A stretch of DNA of 64,000 bases from Desulfobacteraceae bacterium. GTDB taxonomy: Bacteria; Desulfobacterota; Desulfobacteria; Desulfobacterales; Desulfosalsimonadaceae. Shown here in pieces: positions 52,960-61,199 of this stretch (position 1 is the first letter of the stretch; each line of letters opens with the position of its first letter). Location of the stretch: positions 1-64,000 of the forward strand of contig QZKW01000076.1 of assembly GCA_003599885.1 (NCBI GenBank). Direction: 5' to 3'. A program made the translations under genes and the position numbers. The notes under the pieces were generated by a model that saw only the letters and a program-made list of their open reading frames with translations, did no database searches and was not told the DNA's origin.

Positions 52960-54918
52960 TTATCCGGTTGATGCACGGAGTAATCCACCATTATTATGGA
53001 TAAATTTCTTTTGATAATACTGGATAAACGCGGTCACAACCTGCTGATCAAAAAACGTTCCGCTCTTTTCTTTTAATATCTCTATCACCTGGTCCGGCGG
53101 CATGGGCTCGTTATAATAGCGGTTTGCGGTCAATGCTTCAAAATAATCCGCCACCGCGATAATTCTGGCCCCAAGCGGGATATCTTCGCCCCGGACGCCT
53201 TGCGGGTATCCGCTTCCGTCAAATTTTTCGTGATGCGCAGCGGCGATTTCAGGGACCGCCTTCAGCGGGCCCTCAAAATTGATTTGTTCAAGGATTTCTT
53301 TAGTTTTGTCCACATGATATTTAACATATTCATATTCATGTTCGGTCAACTTATCCGCCTTTTTCAGCATGGAGTCCGGAATGCCGATCTTCCCGTAATC
53401 GTGAAGGAGCGCCGCCACCCGGACGACTTCGCCATCTTCCTTATTAAGACCCAGTTCATCGCAGATACCTGCAGAAAATTCCGCTACCCACTCTGAGTGA
53501 CCTTTGGTGACCGGGTCTCTGGCATCAATGCTTGAAACCAGCACTTTCAACACAGACTTCAACTGTTTTTTCTGGGATTCCAGATGTTGGGTATGCCGAA
53601 TGCTGATGCCGATGAAATGGGAGATTCCCATGAGCAAGCTCATATCGCTGTGAACGAGAAGGCGTCTGGACTGGATATTGTCCACAGCCAGAATGCCGAT
53701 GCTTTCATTATCGCAAATGATCGGACAGCAAATAAAAGACTTGGCCCCCATTTTTTGCGCAAAACTGACGCTTTTACTGGAGAGCGTTTCCTGAAACTCA
53801 TTGATATCATTGATGAGCTTTGGCTTTTTCTCCTTAAAACAAATGACGAAAACACCCTTTGAACTCGGATTATCCAAATGAAAATACAGTTTTTGTAAAA
53901 CATTATACTGTTCTTCGGTATACCCGAAACCGGCCCTGAAATTCATCAGCGTGCCTTCCTTGTTGGCCAGCATGATCAATCCGCGATCAAAATCAAGCCG
54001 CTTGTCCAGCACGGAAACCACTTCCGTCAACACATCATCCAGGTGATTGTACCGGTTGACGATTTGACCGATCTCCCGGGTAATTAAACGATTATTGTAA
54101 TTGATTTCAATCTGGTCCACCAACTGGTCTGTTGAATCCTTTAAATTTTGGAGCGCGTCGTTGAGATTGTTTTTTTCCATCCGAACCGCGATGAGAGAAA
54201 CAGACAATATCAAAACCGCAAAAATGGCATATGCCGGGATTAAAGCCCCCAGCGGGAAAAAAAACGCCATCAACAGACCTGCTGCGATCAGAAATAACGT
54301 GATATAATTTTTGATCAGATTCAAATAATTATAAAATGTTTTTTCCCAGGAAATGATATAGCGGCAGCAAGAATCTCCTTTAAATATGCATTCCGGATGC
54401 TCAATCCGGGGCTCTCGATGGTTAAAAATCATAGTTACGGCATCGAAAAACCCTTTTCGATTCTCACACTGGAAGGGTTTTTCGTTTGTTCCGGCATAGG
54501 GCGTCACAGTGATCTGAACCGTATTCGAAGCCAGCATTTTCGATTCAAATCGCGATGAGTGTGTAAATCCTGCTGATGCTTTTTCTATGAACTGATAGGC
54601 TTTGGCAGGGGTGGCCATGCCTAAAATATATTGCCGCATCACGCCGATGGTTTCTGGAGAAGCTGAAAAACGGCCGGCTTCTCTGGCGATATTTTCATTT
54701 TCCGTTAGAACGACAAGCCGTTCGTAGAAACGATCAATCTGATGCTGGGTGAACCAGTGTCCCTGATCATCTACTTCATGAGGTTTCATCCCGGCGTCGG
54801 CCAGAAGACCCTTGACATTGATATCCGGATAATTTTTTTTTACCAATTGAACATACGAATGAATGATTCGGCTGTTATACAACGGCTTATCCTGATGCTG
54901 GGTCATAATTCGGGGCAT
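52960..54918 (-). CDS. Membrane sensor with V4R-like, GAF and HD-GYP (cyclic-di-GMP phosphodiesterase) domains
   Basis: 652 aa from ATG 54918, chosen for the AAAGG about 6 nt upstream; an ATG at 54960 overlaps the previous gene. Residues about 1-190 form a soluble sensor ending in CIFKGDSCCRYIISW, like the cysteine-bearing ends of V4R/heme-NO-type domains. Two transmembrane helices follow (about 205-250), then a coiled coil, a GAF domain (about 285-430) and the HD-GYP domain (about 450-640). The HD pair is His506-Asp507 (HDYGKIGIPD), and HHEKFDGSGYPQG begins at 562, so the metal-binding residues of an active c-di-GMP phosphodiesterase are present. The N-terminal ligand is unknown. Confidence 0.87.
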   Translation of the reverse strand: MPRIMTQHQDKPLYNSRIIHSYVQLVKKNYPDINVKGLLADAGMKPHEVDDQGHWFTQHQIDRFYERLVVLTENENIAREAGRFSASPETIGVMRQYILGMATPAKAYQFIEKASAGFTHSSRFESKMLASNTVQITVTPYAGTNEKPFQCENRKGFFDAVTMIFNHREPRIEHPECIFKGDSCCRYIISWEKTFYNYLNLIKNYITLFLIAAGLLMAFFFPLGALIPAYAIFAVLILSVSLIAVRMEKNNLNDALQNLKDSTDQLVDQIEINYNNRLITREIGQIVNRYNHLDDVLTEVVSVLDKRLDFDRGLIMLANKEGTLMNFRAGFGYTEEQYNVLQKLYFHLDNPSSKGVFVICFKEKKPKLINDINEFQETLSSKSVSFAQKMGAKSFICCPIICDNESIGILAVDNIQSRRLLVHSDMSLLMGISHFIGISIRHTQHLESQKKQLKSVLKVLVSSIDARDPVTKGHSEWVAEFSAGICDELGLNKEDGEVVRVAALLHDYGKIGIPDSMLKKADKLTEHEYEYVKYHVDKTKEILEQINFEGPLKAVPEIAAAHHEKFDGSGYPQGVRGEDIPLGARIIAVADYFEALTANRYYNEPMPPDQVIEILKEKSGTFFDQQVVTAFIQYYQKKFIHNNGGLLRASTG

Positions 54919-54926
54919 GAAGGCCT

Positions 54927-56039
54927 TTAAACTGTCAATTCTTGATTGGTTAAACCGCAATGCCTTTCAGCGCTGGAATCCAGCATGAAGGGCAATCCGC
55001 CTTTTTCTTTTGGCGTGAATCCAAAAGATTGATACCAGACCTCATCGTCTTCCATACAAAAATAGACCATCACATCCGGAGCGATGGAACGGATATGTGC
55101 AATGATCATTCGATAAAAACTGATGCGAAGCGGTTTGAAATAGCGCATCTTCCCATCCAGGCCTTTGATGAATTCTCCATAAACGATCGTGGATGCGTCA
55201 AACCTTTTTTCAATAACAGGCTTTAAATCCGCCTTAAACCGGAAAGTCCCGAGACTGATCCAGACAATCCGGTCCGGAGGAATTATGGTAAACAGTCGGG
55301 TAATCACGTCACGGTAGTCATTCTCACACCCTTGATAAATAACCATCGGATCAAAGTGAAAGGCAACGGGGTATCCAGCGGCCACGCTTTTGGCGGCGGC
55401 CTTAAAGCGGGCATTTAAACCAGCCGTGTGCCGCTCATCTGTCTTGATGATTGTTTCAGTGTTTAGAGACCAGGACAGAATGGTTTTACGGTTATGCGCC
55501 ATTCCCAGAAGATGATCGATATTCACGGTTTTGGTCTTTAATTCCAGTACCGTGCTGCTCTGTCCTGCAAATTTTCGAATCAGCGAGGCCGCATACGGAT
55601 AAAGGGTTTCCCAAATCAAACTGTCCGTGAATTCACCGGTTCCGATGCGCATCAACTGGCGGCGGGCAAAAACTTCATCCAGAGATTGCTCCATATCCGC
55701 ATGATTGACAAAATACTGCAACACCGGCGGATGGAAATAGGACTGCAAAATGCAGTAAGAACAATCCATGGTACAAAACGTCCCGATATGCAGTATCGTA
55801 TAATCGCAGCAGGTATACTGTTCGGTGCCGGGACAAGGCCGGACAAACTTCCCTTTATTCCGGGTCAGCCACAGAGTTGCTTTCCCGGTATCCACAGGAC
55901 TCTCGGAGCGGGCAACCGGATCATACACCTCTTTTGGGTCATGAACAATCTGAAAAGGGATATCCAGACGGGTGCAAATGGCTTTGGCTGCCGGAAGATC
56001 CAGGACATCCCGATCAACATATAGTTGGGTTATCTTCAA
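54927..56039 (-). CDS. Spore-photoproduct-lyase-like radical SAM protein, probably not a true lyase
   Basis: 370 aa. Radical SAM cysteines are Cys89, Cys93 and Cys96 (TFCTMDCSYCILQSY), preceded by a CPGTEQYTCCDY segment. RIGTGEFTDSL, LELKTKTVNIDHLL and WSLNTETIIKTDERHT follow, the order seen in SPL-family enzymes. True spore photoproduct lyase needs another cysteine (Cys141 in Bacillus subtilis) as hydrogen donor; between Cys96 and Cys238 this protein has none. It is therefore probably a related enzyme with a different substrate. The gene overlaps the end of the ParB-like gene by 26 nt, and the HD-GYP gene begins 9 nt after its stop. Confidence 0.83.
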   Translation of the reverse strand: MKITQLYVDRDVLDLPAAKAICTRLDIPFQIVHDPKEVYDPVARSESPVDTGKATLWLTRNKGKFVRPCPGTEQYTCCDYTILHIGTFCTMDCSYCILQSYFHPPVLQYFVNHADMEQSLDEVFARRQLMRIGTGEFTDSLIWETLYPYAASLIRKFAGQSSTVLELKTKTVNIDHLLGMAHNRKTILSWSLNTETIIKTDERHTAGLNARFKAAAKSVAAGYPVAFHFDPMVIYQGCENDYRDVITRLFTIIPPDRIVWISLGTFRFKADLKPVIEKRFDASTIVYGEFIKGLDGKMRYFKPLRISFYRMIIAHIRSIAPDVMVYFCMEDDEVWYQSFGFTPKEKGGLPFMLDSSAERHCGLTNQELTV

Positions 56040-57000
56040 TATCTTTGTCTAATATTTTTTTAAAATCAGAAACATCCGCAAGACCGCCCAAAAACTCATT
56101 GCCGGACAGGAATTGGCTGATATTCTGAAACGTAAACGAAATGTTGAAACGGTCGCTTTCAAAATTGGCCGGGGGGATCAAGCGGATGGCCTCCGGCAAC
56201 TTGAGCCGTTGCAACCGGTCTTGAAAATTCTTTTCAAACCGCACCATTTCAGGATAGCGCATGCGCTGAAACTGTTCACGGATTTTCTGGATTTTCTGAT
56301 GCCGCTCAAGGCCTGGATCGTCAATTATAACTGCCCCAAGCACCTCCCTGATCAGTTGAAGAATTGGCACATGAGCCGCCAAGGCAATCTCGCGGGCCAT
56401 GGTCAGCATTTCCTTCTGATGATTGAGTGTGGGTTTTAATGTTTCAAACACATGCAGAAATATAAGCGCTGAGTCACGATCGAAATTGCCAAGTTCCAGG
56501 GCGATGGTCAGCGAAAGAACGCCGGAAATGATGGGACCAAACAATTCAGGATACACCATGGTCAGTTTTTTAAGTTTTTTGGTCAAGTCCGGGTTGACAT
56601 GAAGGCCAATTTTTTGGGCTTCATGGCTCAGGATGCGGTCATCATCAAAAAATGCCGATAATTTTGTTATGGCATTCGATTGTTCGATGGTGTTGAGGGC
56701 ACGGTTGCAGGCGTTGTCCGCAATGGCCAGGCGGCAGCATTCCAGATCGCCCGCAGTACCTTCAACAATCCGGGCTTCAATGCGGTCCCATCCCAGTTCA
56801 CGGCAGGCCGTAATTCTTCTGAATCCGCTGATAACAATGTATCTGCCGGCCTCCACCGACCGCAGCAAAGGCAGGGAAAGCAGTCCCACCTGCCCGATGG
56901 ACGCTATCAGATCTTCAACGGATTGTTGCGTTGATATTTGATAGGTCGTGTCATTTAAATCGACACGACCGAGTTCAATGGTTTCAGAAAAAAATTGCAT
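56014..57000 (-). CDS. ParB-like (ParB/Srx-fold) protein linked to an SPL-like radical SAM gene
   Basis: 328 aa. The N-terminal ParB/sulfiredoxin-fold domain (about residues 1-100) contains SVEDLIASIGQVGLLSLPL and the nucleotide-binding GFRR at 59-62 (VISGFRRITACRELGW), the equivalent of the GERR box that binds CTP in ParB. A helical middle region (about 105-250) resembles the KorB/Noc DNA-binding region only weakly. The C-terminus is not the ParB dimerisation domain I would expect, and there is no ParA gene nearby, so a chromosome-partition role is unlikely. It overlaps the radical SAM gene by 26 nt, so the two are surely coexpressed. Confidence 0.75.
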   Translation of the reverse strand: MQFFSETIELGRVDLNDTTYQISTQQSVEDLIASIGQVGLLSLPLLRSVEAGRYIVISGFRRITACRELGWDRIEARIVEGTAGDLECCRLAIADNACNRALNTIEQSNAITKLSAFFDDDRILSHEAQKIGLHVNPDLTKKLKKLTMVYPELFGPIISGVLSLTIALELGNFDRDSALIFLHVFETLKPTLNHQKEMLTMAREIALAAHVPILQLIREVLGAVIIDDPGLERHQKIQKIREQFQRMRYPEMVRFEKNFQDRLQRLKLPEAIRLIPPANFESDRFNISFTFQNISQFLSGNEFLGGLADVSDFKKILDKDIEDNPTIC

Positions 57001-57019: not shown

Positions 57020-57904
57020 TCAACTGGTGAGGGAGGTCAAAGCCTCCATATATTTTTCAAATGTTTTTTGAATCACTTCATCAGGCAATGACGGGGCGGG
57101 CGGGGTTTTGTCCCAGCGGATGGACGTTAAATAATCCCGTAAATACTGTTTGTCGAAACTGTTCTGAGACCCGCCGGGTTTATAGGTTGCTCTGGGCCAG
57201 AACCTTGATGAATCCGGGGTCAATACTTCATCAATCAAAATGACCTGATCATTTTGTATGCCGAATTCAAACTTGGTATCTGCAATAATAATCCCTTTTT
57301 CAGCGGCAACAGCTTCGCCCTTTTTATATATGGCCAAGCTTAACTGTTTGACCTTTTCGGCCAGATCGGAGCCGATCAGACGGGCCGCTTCGTCAAAATC
57401 AATATTAATATCATGAGTGCCCATGGCTTCTTTGGTGGAAGGCGTAAAAATGGGTTCCGGCAGCTTATCGGATTCCTTGAGTCCTTCGGGGAGTTGGATG
57501 CCGCAAACAGTTCCGGACTCTTTGTATGACTGCCAGCCTGATCCGGTAATATACCCTCTCACGACACACTCAATGGGAAGCGGTTTAGCTTTATGAACCA
57601 GCATGCTTCTATCGCGCAGGATATCAGCGTAAGGCTTACAAACCGCCGGGTATTCGTCGACATTACTTGAAATCACGTGATTGGGAACGATGGACCCCAT
57701 AAGGTTAAACCAGAACAAGGAAATACGGGTTAAAATCTCCCCTTTTCTCGGGACAGGATCCGGCATCACCACGTCATAAGCGGAAATGCGATCCGATGCG
57801 ACCATTAACAGCTTGTCACCCAGGTCATAAATATCCCTGACCTTGCCTCTTTGAAGTAAATTTAACTCCGGAAATTCAGTTTGAAAAAGGGCATTGCTTG
57901 ACAT
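57020..57904 (-). CDS. purC: Phosphoribosylaminoimidazole-succinocarboxamide synthase
   Basis: 294 aa from ATG 57904, which has GGAG 7 nt upstream. Ligates aspartate to CAIR in purine biosynthesis. Conserved blocks: [26 protein letters not shown], quoted in part as GKVRDIY and [32 protein letters not shown], quoted in part as [15 protein letters not shown]; and [15 protein letters not shown]. The length matches the long (yeast/proteobacterial) SAICAR synthetase form. It sits oddly between signalling genes and the ParB-like gene. Confidence 0.95.
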
Positions 57905-57952
57905 CAATTACTCCGTAAGGGTTGAATATGAATCTATAAATCGATTTGTGTG

Positions 57953-58303
57953 TTAAACGTTAAACTGTTTATTGAATTCATTGATATATTTTTTTAAGAC
58001 AACAAGCGCTTCCTTGTTAACCTGGATGAACTCAATGCCAGCCTCAAACATTTTCCCTTCTCCCCGGTTGGCATACACCACTTTCCCCTTTATTTCAATC
58101 AAGTCATCTTCAATTCCAATTGAAATCAATAGGATATATTTAGTGTCAATCGGCTCATGGGTTTCCAGCTGGAGGCCGGTCTCGCTGATGTTCAACGTTC
58201 GGCCCATCCCCTGATTCCATGCTTTGCCGTCCGGATCAAGAGTGACATACGATAAAAGATTTAATGCTTCAACCCGGTCATGCTTTCGTTTATTATCTCC
58301 CAT
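57953..58303 (-). CDS. Single-domain PilZ protein
   Basis: 116 aa, almost entirely one PilZ domain. The opening KRKHDRVEA supplies the basic R-rich motif, and LNISETGLQLET supplies the D/NxSxxG motif (with Asn). GKVVYANRGEGKMFEAGIEF completes the barrel. It should bind cyclic-di-GMP and act as an adaptor for a partner. GGAGT lies upstream of the ATG. It follows the DUF4388/cNMP gene by about 100 nt, and the HD-GYP phosphodiesterase gene lies in the same minus-strand run. Confidence 0.85.
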   Translation of the reverse strand: MGDNKRKHDRVEALNLLSYVTLDPDGKAWNQGMGRTLNISETGLQLETHEPIDTKYILLISIGIEDDLIEIKGKVVYANRGEGKMFEAGIEFIQVNKEALVVLKKYINEFNKQFNV

Positions 58304-58406
58304 GAATGAACTCCTTCTGGTTGAAAATCATTTTCACTATTAAAAAAATACCCATTTATTTAAAGGCTATTTGACATTTACAAAAAAAAACAAAAAGAAT
58401 CAATAC

Positions 58407-59588
58407 TCATTCCTTGCCCGCCGGGTCTTTTTTTAAAATATCGACCAACCTTGCGGTGGTTATGGAGAGGCAAGTGAAGGTATGCTGGATCATGTTTTTG
58501 AGCATCAATGACAGTTTATCGTACTCTTTTTTTAACCCGATCAGATTGATTTGTTGGATTGAAAAATCATCTGAAACAAACACCTCAGCGGAATGGGGCT
58601 CATGCGAGGTATTTAAAAACGCAATATTCCCAATAAAATCACCGATGGTTAAGGCGCACAAAGGGATATACAGGTTATCGATTTTTCTGACGATAACAGC
58701 ATTACCGGAGGTTATTTTCATAACATAATTGTTCGCCTTATCAGGCAACGGCAGGTGCTTCATTGGGCTCATGCTCTTCTGCAGAGCCACTTTTTCGAAA
58801 ACCGCAGTTGCGCAGGTATGGGTGATTCGCTTCAGACGATTGTCAAATGACGCCAAGACAGTTCTTAACTCTTCGGACAATTTAGAATATTCTTCTAAAA
58901 TACGATGATAATCCAGAACCCCCAATTGAACCCGCCCGATGGCAGTAACTGTGGCGCTCCGCACATTGCTTCTGACGTTTTGGGAGGTAATGCTGCCGAT
59001 AAATGCGCCATCGGACAATTTAGTGATGGGCACCTGTCCTTCGGGCAGCAACCGGACGACTTCCACCGTCCCCTCAAGAATAACCCACAGCCAGTTGCCG
59101 AACTTCTCCTGGACCACGATTTCCTGGCCGTCTTCGAATTCATCTTCATCAACGATATATAAATAGTCAACAATCGGCCCTTTGATGACCGGCAGGCCGG
59201 AGGCGTCTTTTAAATCCAGATTCAATTTTCGTGTCTCAGTACTTCCAAACGTCTGGATTAGGCCATCATCCAACATCCTCAGCCCGTCAAGAATGATTTC
59301 CATCCGGCTTTTGTGAATATTTTTATTTACGAGAACAGGTTCTTCATTGAATTCAAAATAGGCATCCAGCCAGCCGAAAAAGGAATTTAAAACATTAATG
59401 CCGGTATCATTCTGATACTCAGCATCAACCGGATTGCCGTCCACGCAGTAAATCAACCCTGACCCATCAGCATGCATACTGGACAATTTAATGACGCCAG
59501 TGCTTCCGAGTCCGCCGAGAAGTTGAAGTAATTCAGCAAGACCAAGAAAGCTCAACCTGCCGCTTAACGCACTGTTCGAATTTATCAT
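58407..59588 (-). CDS. DUF4388 (PATAN-like) plus cyclic-nucleotide-binding-fold regulatory protein
   Basis: 393 aa from ATG 59588; a TTG 18 nt earlier is possible. The N-terminal DUF4388 domain (about residues 8-100) has GRLSFLGLAELLQLLGGLGSTGVI and FFGWLDAYFEF, typical of gliding and motility regulators. A cNMP-binding-like beta-barrel (about 135-255) has GNWLWVILEGTVEVVRLLPEGQV and LSDGAFIGSI, and a second, shorter one (about 275-370) follows. Phosphate-binding-cassette residues are only partly conserved, so ligand binding is uncertain. It lies 5 nt after the MglA-like GTPase stop, so the two are coexpressed. Confidence 0.75.
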   Translation of the reverse strand: MINSNSALSGRLSFLGLAELLQLLGGLGSTGVIKLSSMHADGSGLIYCVDGNPVDAEYQNDTGINVLNSFFGWLDAYFEFNEEPVLVNKNIHKSRMEIILDGLRMLDDGLIQTFGSTETRKLNLDLKDASGLPVIKGPIVDYLYIVDEDEFEDGQEIVVQEKFGNWLWVILEGTVEVVRLLPEGQVPITKLSDGAFIGSITSQNVRSNVRSATVTAIGRVQLGVLDYHRILEEYSKLSEELRTVLASFDNRLKRITHTCATAVFEKVALQKSMSPMKHLPLPDKANNYVMKITSGNAVIVRKIDNLYIPLCALTIGDFIGNIAFLNTSHEPHSAEVFVSDDFSIQQINLIGLKKEYDKLSLMLKNMIQHTFTCLSITTARLVDILKKDPAGKE

Positions 59589-59593
59589 AATTA

Positions 59594-60208
59594 CTATTGG
59601 GCCCAATTAAATTCATTTTGCAGTGATTGTAATGTGAGTTTAAGCACCTGAGTTAATGTATTGCCGACCCCTTGCCCGGATAAAGCGCTGGCGGGAAAAA
59701 AAGGTACTTTGAGTTGGCGGTTGAGCTCATGGTCCATTTTTTCAATGGACATTACCGGCAAACCCATCTGTTCAAGGTCCCGCTTATTATATTGCAGGAC
59801 CAGCGGAATCTTACGGATGCTCAAGCCCATTTTCAGGAGATTTTCGTGCAGATCCTTGAGTGAAATCATATTTTTTTCCCGCCGGACGGCAAGGGAATCA
59901 GCCACAAACACCACCCCGTCCACTCCTTTTAGAACGAGTTGACGGGTTGCCTGGTATTTTATCTGGCCGGGAACCGTATACAGTTGCACTTTGACATCAC
60001 AACCCTTTATTTTGCCGAGGCCTAACGGTAAAAAGTCAAAAAAAAGCGTCCGGTCCCCTTCGGTGTCGATGGAAATCATCTTGCCGATAACCTGCTTTTG
60101 AAATGCCTTGTGAATATATTCAAGATTTGTGGTTTTACCGCTGCGTCCGGGACCATAATACACAATCTTGCATTCAATCTGCCGATTTTTAAGGTTAATG
60201 ACCGCCAT
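59594..60208 (-). CDS. MglA-like Ras-family GTPase
   Basis: 204 aa from ATG 60208, with GGAG 8 nt upstream. Ras-like small GTPase with P-loop GPGRSGKTT (residues 19-27), G3 motif TVPGQ, which is characteristic of the MglA family, and G4 NKRD. The early GKMISIDTEGDRTLFFDFLP segment is also typical of MglA. In Myxococcus, MglA sets cell polarity for gliding and type IV pili together with its GAP MglB. No MglB (roadblock) gene is adjacent; instead a TPR protein precedes it and a DUF4388/cNMP protein follows. Confidence 0.9.
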   Translation of the reverse strand: MAVINLKNRQIECKIVYYGPGRSGKTTNLEYIHKAFQKQVIGKMISIDTEGDRTLFFDFLPLGLGKIKGCDVKVQLYTVPGQIKYQATRQLVLKGVDGVVFVADSLAVRREKNMISLKDLHENLLKMGLSIRKIPLVLQYNKRDLEQMGLPVMSIEKMDHELNRQLKVPFFPASALSGQGVGNTLTQVLKLTLQSLQNEFNWAQ

Positions 60209-60275
60209 TAAGAGCTCCAATGAGTTCCATTGTTAACATATTGATAAAATCAACAGCCGCTGTTTGAAATACCTT

Positions 60276-61199
60276 TCAGGAAATAATTTTGATGATTTTA
60301 ATTTCAAGGCTGGAGTCACCTTTTTTAGGCCCCGCATTAATTTCATTTCTGGCAGAAACATACCCTTCCCCTGAAAAAATGGCGACGGAAGAATAAAACG
60401 TCATGTCTTTAAAAAGATCACCGGGCTTGATGCTTTCTATTAACTCTTTTTGCTTTCGGGGCATAATCATTTGAATATATTGACCGGACTGGAAACTGAC
60501 TTCCAGTTCGACTTTTTCACCTTCCCTCGCACCTCTCGGCAACGCAAAACGGACGGAGTTAATATCGAGCAATTCATCCTCATCGATTTCAGAATCCGGC
60601 TCCACGGTCTGCTGGGATTCCAGACCGTCGATCTCAATTTCAAGATTAAGACCTTTTTGCTTAACTAGTGCAGAAAAGTAATTTTGAATGGATGCGATTT
60701 CTTCAGGAGGGAACAGCTTGGTTTTACGCCATTTCTGATACAGGGAAACGGCATAATCGCCGTAATTTTGTTCAAGCCAGCACCATAAAATATTCTTCGC
60801 CGCATCCAGACGAAGCGCATCTTGATCCAGCAACCGGTTAAATTCTTCGATGGCTTTATCATATTGTCCGAATTTCGCCAGTGCGATGGCGCCGCCCAAC
60901 GATGATGACCCTTTTGCTTCCGGATCATTAAAACTGTACATTTCTTTCATCAATGATTGCGCGTCTGGCGAGGCTTGAGGCGCCTTCTTCGTGCCGTCAA
61001 GTCTTTGGATGGTCTTTTTCAGTGTTTCTATGCGGGCCGAAATTTTCGCAAGAAGCGTATTCCGGTTCCGGATATTCTGATTGGCTTTGATCAGGCCTTC
61101 AATGGCACGGAATTTTTCGAGGGACTCCACCAGCAGACCATGGGTCTCGTAAAGTTCTGCCTCCTGATAGTATGCTTTAATTTTTTCCCCAAGATTCAT
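60276..61199 (-). CDS. TPR/coiled-coil protein, first gene of the GTPase operon
   Basis: 307 aa, soluble. Residues 1-75 are a helical repeat (AELYETHGLLVESLEKFRAIEGL), and a TPR-like repeat follows at about 105-145 (ALAKFGQYDKAIEEFNRLLDQD). The C-terminal half (about 205-305) is beta-rich, with a charged acidic linker (EPDSEIDEDELLD) and an all-beta finish (VELEVSFQSGQYIQMIMPRK, YVSARNEINAGPKKGD). It is probably a scaffold for the MglA-like GTPase 67 nt downstream; that is inferred only from order. GGGGAC lies upstream of the ATG. I do not recognise the C-terminal domain. Confidence 0.72.
   Translation of the reverse strand: MNLGEKIKAYYQEAELYETHGLLVESLEKFRAIEGLIKANQNIRNRNTLLAKISARIETLKKTIQRLDGTKKAPQASPDAQSLMKEMYSFNDPEAKGSSSLGGAIALAKFGQYDKAIEEFNRLLDQDALRLDAAKNILWCWLEQNYGDYAVSLYQKWRKTKLFPPEEIASIQNYFSALVKQKGLNLEIEIDGLESQQTVEPDSEIDEDELLDINSVRFALPRGAREGEKVELEVSFQSGQYIQMIMPRKQKELIESIKPGDLFKDMTFYSSVAIFSGEGYVSARNEINAGPKKGDSSLEIKIIKIIS

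Follow-up and report, generated by a model that had tools for sequence, protein, structure and literature searches.

The closest described systems to the gene pair considered here are spore photoproduct lyase (SPL), a radical SAM enzyme, and the ParB, Noc and KorB proteins together with PadC of Myxococcus xanthus. The excerpted text of PMC3742179 gives the hydrogen-donor cysteine of SPL as C141 (Bs) or C140 (Gt) and its radical-relay tyrosine as Y99 (Bs) or Y98 (Gt). According to the available part of PMC8494293, E78 of B. subtilis ParB is needed for CTP hydrolysis, E78Q abolishing appreciable hydrolysis, and PadC binds CTP without hydrolysis, has Phe at the place of the catalytic Glu and is without ENLQR. 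An SPL homologue of vent Epsilonproteobacteria, in a non-spore-former, is 23% identical to its closest characterised protein, that of B. subtilis, and the accessible sections of that paper mention no ParB-like partner (PMC2628731). In two species an SPL homologue lies beside rubrerythrin, as stated in an excerpt of PMC5317093. We found no description of a pairing of ParB-like and SPL-like genes in the literature searched, mainly open-licence PMC papers, and as far as that search reaches the combination is undescribed. The genus of the two rubrerythrin-SPL species is presumably Hippea.

Such a pair occurs in a 64,000-nucleotide stretch of a Desulfobacteraceae contig (QZKW01000076.1), hereafter the window. 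Both of its proteins are members of known superfamilies, and neither matches the catalytic hallmarks of the family for which it would be named.

Layout of the locus

The genes of the pair and their immediate neighbours are as follows.

56014-57000, minus strand: ParB-like partner gene, ATG start, 328 aa, with ParB_N (putative CTP pocket), HTH and C-terminal domains
54927-56039, minus strand: SPL-like radical SAM gene, TTG start, 370 aa
56014-56039, minus strand: overlap of the ParB-like and SPL-like genes, 26 nt
57020-57907, minus strand: purC, 19 nt before the ParB-like gene
ATG at 54918, minus strand: HD-GYP gene (GAF and HD_5), 8 nt past the stop of the SPL-like gene

The original prediction had described a ParB-like gene with a GFRR box overlapping an SPL-like gene by 26 nt, and both reading frames are present as described. 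The overlap suggests that the two genes may be translationally coupled. An HD-GYP gene had also been placed directly after the pair. Its position stands, with a spacing of 8 nt where 9 had been given, but it does not hold up as a third component, since its cluster occurs in 4 of 81 loci (5 of 41 in a smaller set, one of the five being a short piece). The first possible start of this gene is the TTG at 54960, from which it would overlap the SPL-like gene.

As for parA, a Pfam scan of six window proteins gave no match to ParA. The strongest ParB_N match of the host genome scores 115.5 bits and lies on another contig (G000:C4), compared with 30.6 bits for the ParB-like protein of the pair. The former is presumably the partition ParB of the host. 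With a so much stronger match elsewhere, it is very unlikely that the ParB-like protein of the pair serves as partition ParB; the plasmid partition protein that had been named as a counter-explanation did not materialize, and an annotation as partition protein is unsuitable.

Upstream of the pair, the block 57020-61199 (minus strand) encodes a TPR-like protein, a Ras/Arf-like GTPase, a DUF4388 and cyclic-nucleotide-binding protein, a PilZ-like protein and purC, and many genomes of the order likewise keep it next to the pair. The TPR-like and PilZ-like identities are those we take these two proteins to have. In the direction from the TPR-like gene to purC, the corresponding clusters (8, 5, 3, 4 and 2) are found in 15, 25, 31, 29 and 44 of 81 loci, and the block appears to resemble an MglA-type signalling module. 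Seven of the 44 loci with purC upstream are among L183-L222, one of them (L215) from the order; purC upstream is common but not needed.

Distribution of the two genes

The sample of the window's order comprises 146 genomes, of which 126 carry both genes, 2 the ParB-like gene alone, 4 the SPL-like gene alone and 14 neither. This count excludes weak ParB matches, secondary fragments and SPL matches of about 26-36% identity, which were taken as another subfamily, and four genomes (G052, G056, G070 and G087) are scored as having neither because their weak or distant matches were excluded. In the window's own family, 33 of 36 genomes have both genes and 3 have neither; the genes overlap or lie at most 30 nt apart in 32 of these 33, some being cut by contig ends. 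The 33rd, G006, belongs to the window's genus and has both genes decayed side by side (L240; G006:C29, 1917-2787). Throughout the order sample the two genes are within 20 kb of each other in 84 genomes, on the same strand with the ParB-like gene upstream in 83 of them, on different contigs in 39 and far apart in 3. Their spacing is 0.3-2.5 kb in 13 genomes and 2.5-20 kb in 20.

Four loci (L065, L067, L068 and L070) have five genes between the members of the pair, in one shared order (clusters 12, 13, 23, 24 and 18), which we take to encode a TetR-like regulator, a protein of ~680 aa, a symporter-like protein and two sensor-like proteins. The single long frame inspected as a candidate fusion of both genes (G100) ran through an N stretch and was discarded.

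Across the phylum, 297 genomes were searched with profiles of the full partner, of the enzyme and of the C-terminal domain of the partner alone, at thresholds of E 1e-60 for the enzyme and E 0.001 for the domain, with up to 14 domain candidates scored per genome. The enzyme and the C-terminal domain occur together in 161 genomes, neither occurs in 122, the enzyme alone in 6 and the domain alone in 8, counts that are uncorrected for phylogeny. All but 3 of the 14 single-gene genomes are accounted for by gene pieces or contig ends. A nearly full-length enzyme just below the first threshold is present in G146, pieces of the enzyme in G150, G237, G252 and G275, and a piece of the partner in G307. 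In G212, G300 and G394 the partner sits at a contig start, pointing off the contig, and in G325 and G327 the contig has base 24 or 122 as the start of the enzyme, which leaves no room on it for a neighbouring partner. Three genomes of family f83 (G256, G284 and G309) are left over, with the enzyme but with no partner detected even on a second look. Other f83 genomes have both genes, on different contigs. Family labels were assigned for part of the 297 genomes, and at least 13 families are mixed, some of their genomes having the pair and others neither gene.

Gene order was recorded for 150 of the 167 genomes with the enzyme and 150 of the 169 with the C-terminal domain. Among the 131 listed genomes with both, 92, from 32 families, have the genes within 500 nt on the same strand with the partner upstream, and no other arrangement within 500 nt was seen. 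The remaining ones have the genes on different contigs (33) or far apart on one contig (6). For 17 listed families no adjacent pair was seen, the genes being on different contigs or far apart. In 80 fetched loci and the window, the neighbours vary between lineages and the pair persists. Pairwise distances of the two proteins are correlated (r 0.81 in 42 loci outside the order, with 0 of 2000 permutations as high), a correlation to which shared descent adds. This value omits L215 and the broken L240, both from the order; over a set of 44 loci that includes these two, r is 0.68.

Because it recurs across the phylum sample, the pair is beyond chance, and the genes are mostly kept or missing together and are therefore probably one two-protein machine. 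We consider a functional pairing of the two genes to be highly probable. The original prediction had proposed a conserved unit and a search for conserved adjacency, and the order, phylum and gene-order counts agree in both respects; absence of the pairing from relatives, which it had named as the adverse outcome, was not what these counts gave.

Several broader associations were considered and set aside. DsrA is above cut-off in 143 of the 297 genomes; 96 have both DsrA and the enzyme, 71 the enzyme only, 47 DsrA only and 83 neither (odds ratio 2.4, P 0.0003, uncorrected). Since this association is loose, sulfate reduction was rejected as the main link. Anti-phage defence was rejected as well: no PADLOC model matched the enzyme, and the partner gave only partial matches in the ParB_N region (E 7e-4 and 5e-3), none of them convincing. 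To look for a mobile or viral origin, viral contigs were scanned with patterns, and none of the 6 stretches obtained was a relative. Plasmid records gave two weak relatives, a Bacillus splB and a Fusobacterium gene, the latter with no partner match in its 8.9-kb surroundings, and three phage records gave partial partner matches covering 21-69%. This origin was also rejected.

Conserved residues of the enzyme and its partner

The SPL-like protein matches the Pfam SPL family with 88.4 bits (cut-off 27); the NCBIfam SPL equivalog TIGR04070 gives 101.7 bits, below its cut-off of 400. A model of the enzyme (mean pLDDT 86.9) aligns with six SPL entries at Z 31.8-32.1, rmsd 2.6 and 312-313 aligned residues, and the next family reaches Z 13.6. 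The features discussed below are as follows.

55752-55775, minus strand: CX3CX2C radical SAM motif (C89, C93, C96), Cys in 162/162 at each position
55806-55835, minus strand: second cysteine group C69, C77, C78 (CPGTxxYxCC), Cys in 161/161 at C69, 154/161 at C77 and 161/161 at C78
55632-55634, minus strand: E136, at the place of the SPL hydrogen-donor Cys (C140 Gt / C141 Bs) in the GtSPL alignment
55056-55058, minus strand: C328, closing the last strand of the barrel, Cys in 162/162 and in 50/50 outside the order

Residues were counted in enzyme matches of at least 150 bits and partner matches of at least 60 bits with duplicates removed, 163 and 117 being kept. Seventy-two of the kept enzyme loci were found through the patterns GTGE[FY]TDS[LM] and CPGTxxY[TRN]CC; the counts therefore favour E136, C69, C77 and C78, and were repeated without these loci.

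With GtSPL (PDB 4FHC series) the enzyme shares the fold over residues 1-329 (Z about 32, 21% identity), CX3CX2C and the SAM-site Tyr, Tyr95, which is kept in all 162 enzymes. Unlike SPL, it has Glu for the catalytic Cys and mostly Ile for the relay Tyr; it also has additional invariant cysteines (C69, C78 and C328), its C-terminus is longer and a partner gene goes with it. Among 162 distinct enzymes, 159 have Glu at position 136, 2 have Asp and 1 has Gln, and none has Cys; the recount without pattern-found loci gives Glu 87, Asp 2 and Gln 1 of 90, again with no Cys. I97, which aligns with the relay Y98 of GtSPL, is Ile in 140, Phe in 10, Val in 9, Ala in 2 and Tyr in 1 of 162. At C69 and C78 the recount gives Cys in 89 of 89. 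The R299-Y300 loop is common, with R in 163/163 and Y in 154/163 enzymes. A remnant of a spore lyase, the other counter-explanation named at the outset, thus did not turn up, the SPL catalytic residues being absent (position 136). The replaced residues mark a subfamily of SPL for which annotation as spore lyase is unsuitable.

In the enzyme model, C328 closes a strand at residues 325-328. Radical SAM active sites lie at the side of the barrel where this strand ends. Because of this location at the end of the last barrel strand, on the active-site side, C328 may be a new hydrogen donor.

The ParB-like partner matches Pfam ParB_N with 28.4 bits (cut-off 26.3), and the NCBIfam ParB domain TIGR00180 with 37.7 bits, below the cut-off of 58.45. 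Its model has a mean pLDDT of 93.5, and KorB, Noc, ParB and PadC match over about residues 1-204. It is divided as follows.

56698-57000, minus strand: ParB_N (ParB/Srx fold), residues 1-101; PadC 6ryk, Z 12.8, rmsd 2.0, 98 aligned
56815-56826, minus strand: GFRR box, residues 59-62; G59 and R62 in 111/111
56389-56742, minus strand: HTH domain, residues 87-204; Noc DNA-binding domain 6y93, Z 8.3, rmsd 2.2, 114 aligned
56017-56388, minus strand: C-terminal domain, residues 205-328, with R-Y/F-P and F-E-G motifs; found beside the enzyme where ParB_N is missing

Of 111 aligned partners (124 sequences, duplicates retained), 86 have Phe where GERR has its catalytic Glu, and a single one has Glu. 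For the 35 from outside the order, the residue is Phe 12 times, Tyr 9 times, and Trp and Glu once each. Judged from these alignments, the Glu is generally lost, and Phe in its place is mostly characteristic of the order; with Phe in only 12 of 35 elsewhere, the analogy with PadC is therefore best for the order. Of 68 partners from the order, all keep E106 and 67 keep N96 and R100, which makes nucleotide binding plausible. The 6y93 match has a middling Z and points to a predicted DNA-binding domain, the recognition region of which is poorly conserved.

The partner is thus like ParB, Noc and KorB in its ParB_N and HTH folds, its G..R box and, in the order, N96, R100 and E106. It is unlike them in that the GERR Glu is replaced in 110 of 111, the C-terminal domain is without a Pfam match, no ParA was seen beside it in the window and its gene order is tied to a radical SAM gene. 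With PadC (PDB 6RYK) it shares the ParB_N fold and, within the order, Phe where the catalytic Glu would stand; unlike PadC as the available part of its description presents it, the partner keeps an ENxxR-like N..R motif in the order and has a radical SAM enzyme as its mate.

Pfam gave no match to the C-terminal domain of the window member and no family that matches more than 2 of 47 members. Among 115 partners, 114 have P250 and 110 have E281. Fold matches barely cover residues 250-328; a Raf1 row (Z 5.7) reaches residue 328, and none covers the domain well. In eight genomes (G182, G217, G277, G303, G337, G290, G359 and G419) an ORF or frame of 168-200 aa beside the enzyme holds the C-terminal part only. 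These partners without ParB_N span four families (f110, f140, f145 and f129); similar short partners at contig ends in G389 and G283 were left out of the count. In G412 the ParB_N part is very weak, at 7.5 bits. ParB_N is missing in four families that keep the rest, and the DNA-clamp part is therefore not core everywhere. The core thus seems to be the enzyme together with the C-terminal domain, the ParB part apparently being an addition that most lineages have retained.

Possible functions of the pair

We tentatively propose a two-subunit radical SAM machine that most likely acts on DNA and for which the ParB part would be a CTP-gated loader, a scheme that as a whole is a serious possibility but falls short of probable. 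The first subunit, an enzyme of the SPL superfamily, would bind [4Fe-4S] and SAM and generate the 5'-deoxyadenosyl radical, with a chemistry unlike that of SPL. The second, a dedicated partner, would dock on or activate the enzyme through its C-terminal domain and in most lineages would also bear a ParB-type CTP pocket and HTH. A CTP-bound, non-hydrolysing clamp like that of PadC would then load the enzyme onto DNA, where it would repair or modify a base. We infer direct contact between the subunits, CTP binding, DNA as the substrate and the reaction itself. A more specific version, in which a CTP-locked, non-hydrolysing ParB-type clamp loads the enzyme on chromosomal DNA for a hitherto undescribed kind of base repair or modification in which C328 takes over from the SPL cysteine as hydrogen donor, is rather doubtful. 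The titles of a few hosts refer to groundwater, sediment or a worm endosymbiont, and UV lesions are therefore a doubtful substrate.

Next in rank, and unlikely in our estimate, is an enzyme that modifies or activates a protein. Its substrate or activator would be the partner's conserved C-terminal domain or else a protein which that domain binds, and ParB_N and HTH would be a regulatory addition. It is the C-terminal domain, not ParB_N, that stays beside the enzyme in short partners, and P250 and E281 are almost always kept in it. Peptide and protein radical SAM enzymes are found among the second-tier fold matches, though these are generic, and the fold of the enzyme is far nearer to the DNA lyase (Z 32) than to the listed peptide enzymes (Z about 13 or less).

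Modification of RNA is more unlikely still. The pair would act on rRNA, tRNA or a nucleotide, and the ParB-like pocket would bind a nucleotide ligand instead of serving DNA loading. Viperin with CTP is the second-best fold family for the enzyme, although its Z of 13.6 is within the general radical SAM level. Clusters 6 and 9, which we take to be elongation-factor-G-like and TlyA-like, are often near the pair in the order (21 and 14 of 81 loci, respectively), but outside the order L221 is the only locus with cluster 6, and no locus has cluster 9. By Pfam, no RNA-binding domain is found in either protein.

It is improbable that the two genes are independent neighbours, old core genes held in place by general synteny with no functional coupling. 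The block around purC is syntenic in the order, and 33 genomes have 0.3-20 kb between the genes, as this explanation would have it. However, the flanks vary across the phylum while the pair persists, and both genes are missing from some genomes of at least 13 otherwise pair-bearing families and have decayed jointly in G006.

Least likely is an ordinary SPL, acting in the manner of SPL on spore photoproduct or some other UV dimer, beside a ParB-like gene that is a mere neighbour. The SPL fold, SAM-site residues and R299-Y300 loop are kept, and the enzyme occurs in 1 of the 8 genomes where photolyase matches strongly, compared with 166 of the 289 others (Fisher P 0.023, uncorrected for phylogeny). 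SPL proper is nevertheless nearly excluded, as none of 162 enzymes has the hydrogen-donor Cys and 1 of 162 has the relay Tyr; the TIGR04070 score, too, is far below its cut-off. Photolyase PF03441 is found in 23 of the 297 genomes at E 0.001, in 13 above cut-off and in 8 as a strong match. With the above-cut-off set, the enzyme is present in 4 of 13 genomes against 163 of 284 others (P 0.084, uncorrected for phylogeny), and the photolyase association depends on the threshold.

If the proposed loading of the enzyme by a ParB-type clamp is true, the pair would link a ParB-type CTP switch to radical chemistry on DNA. Present in 161 of 297 sampled genomes of a large phylum and usually kept or missing as a unit, it is a clear target for experiment.
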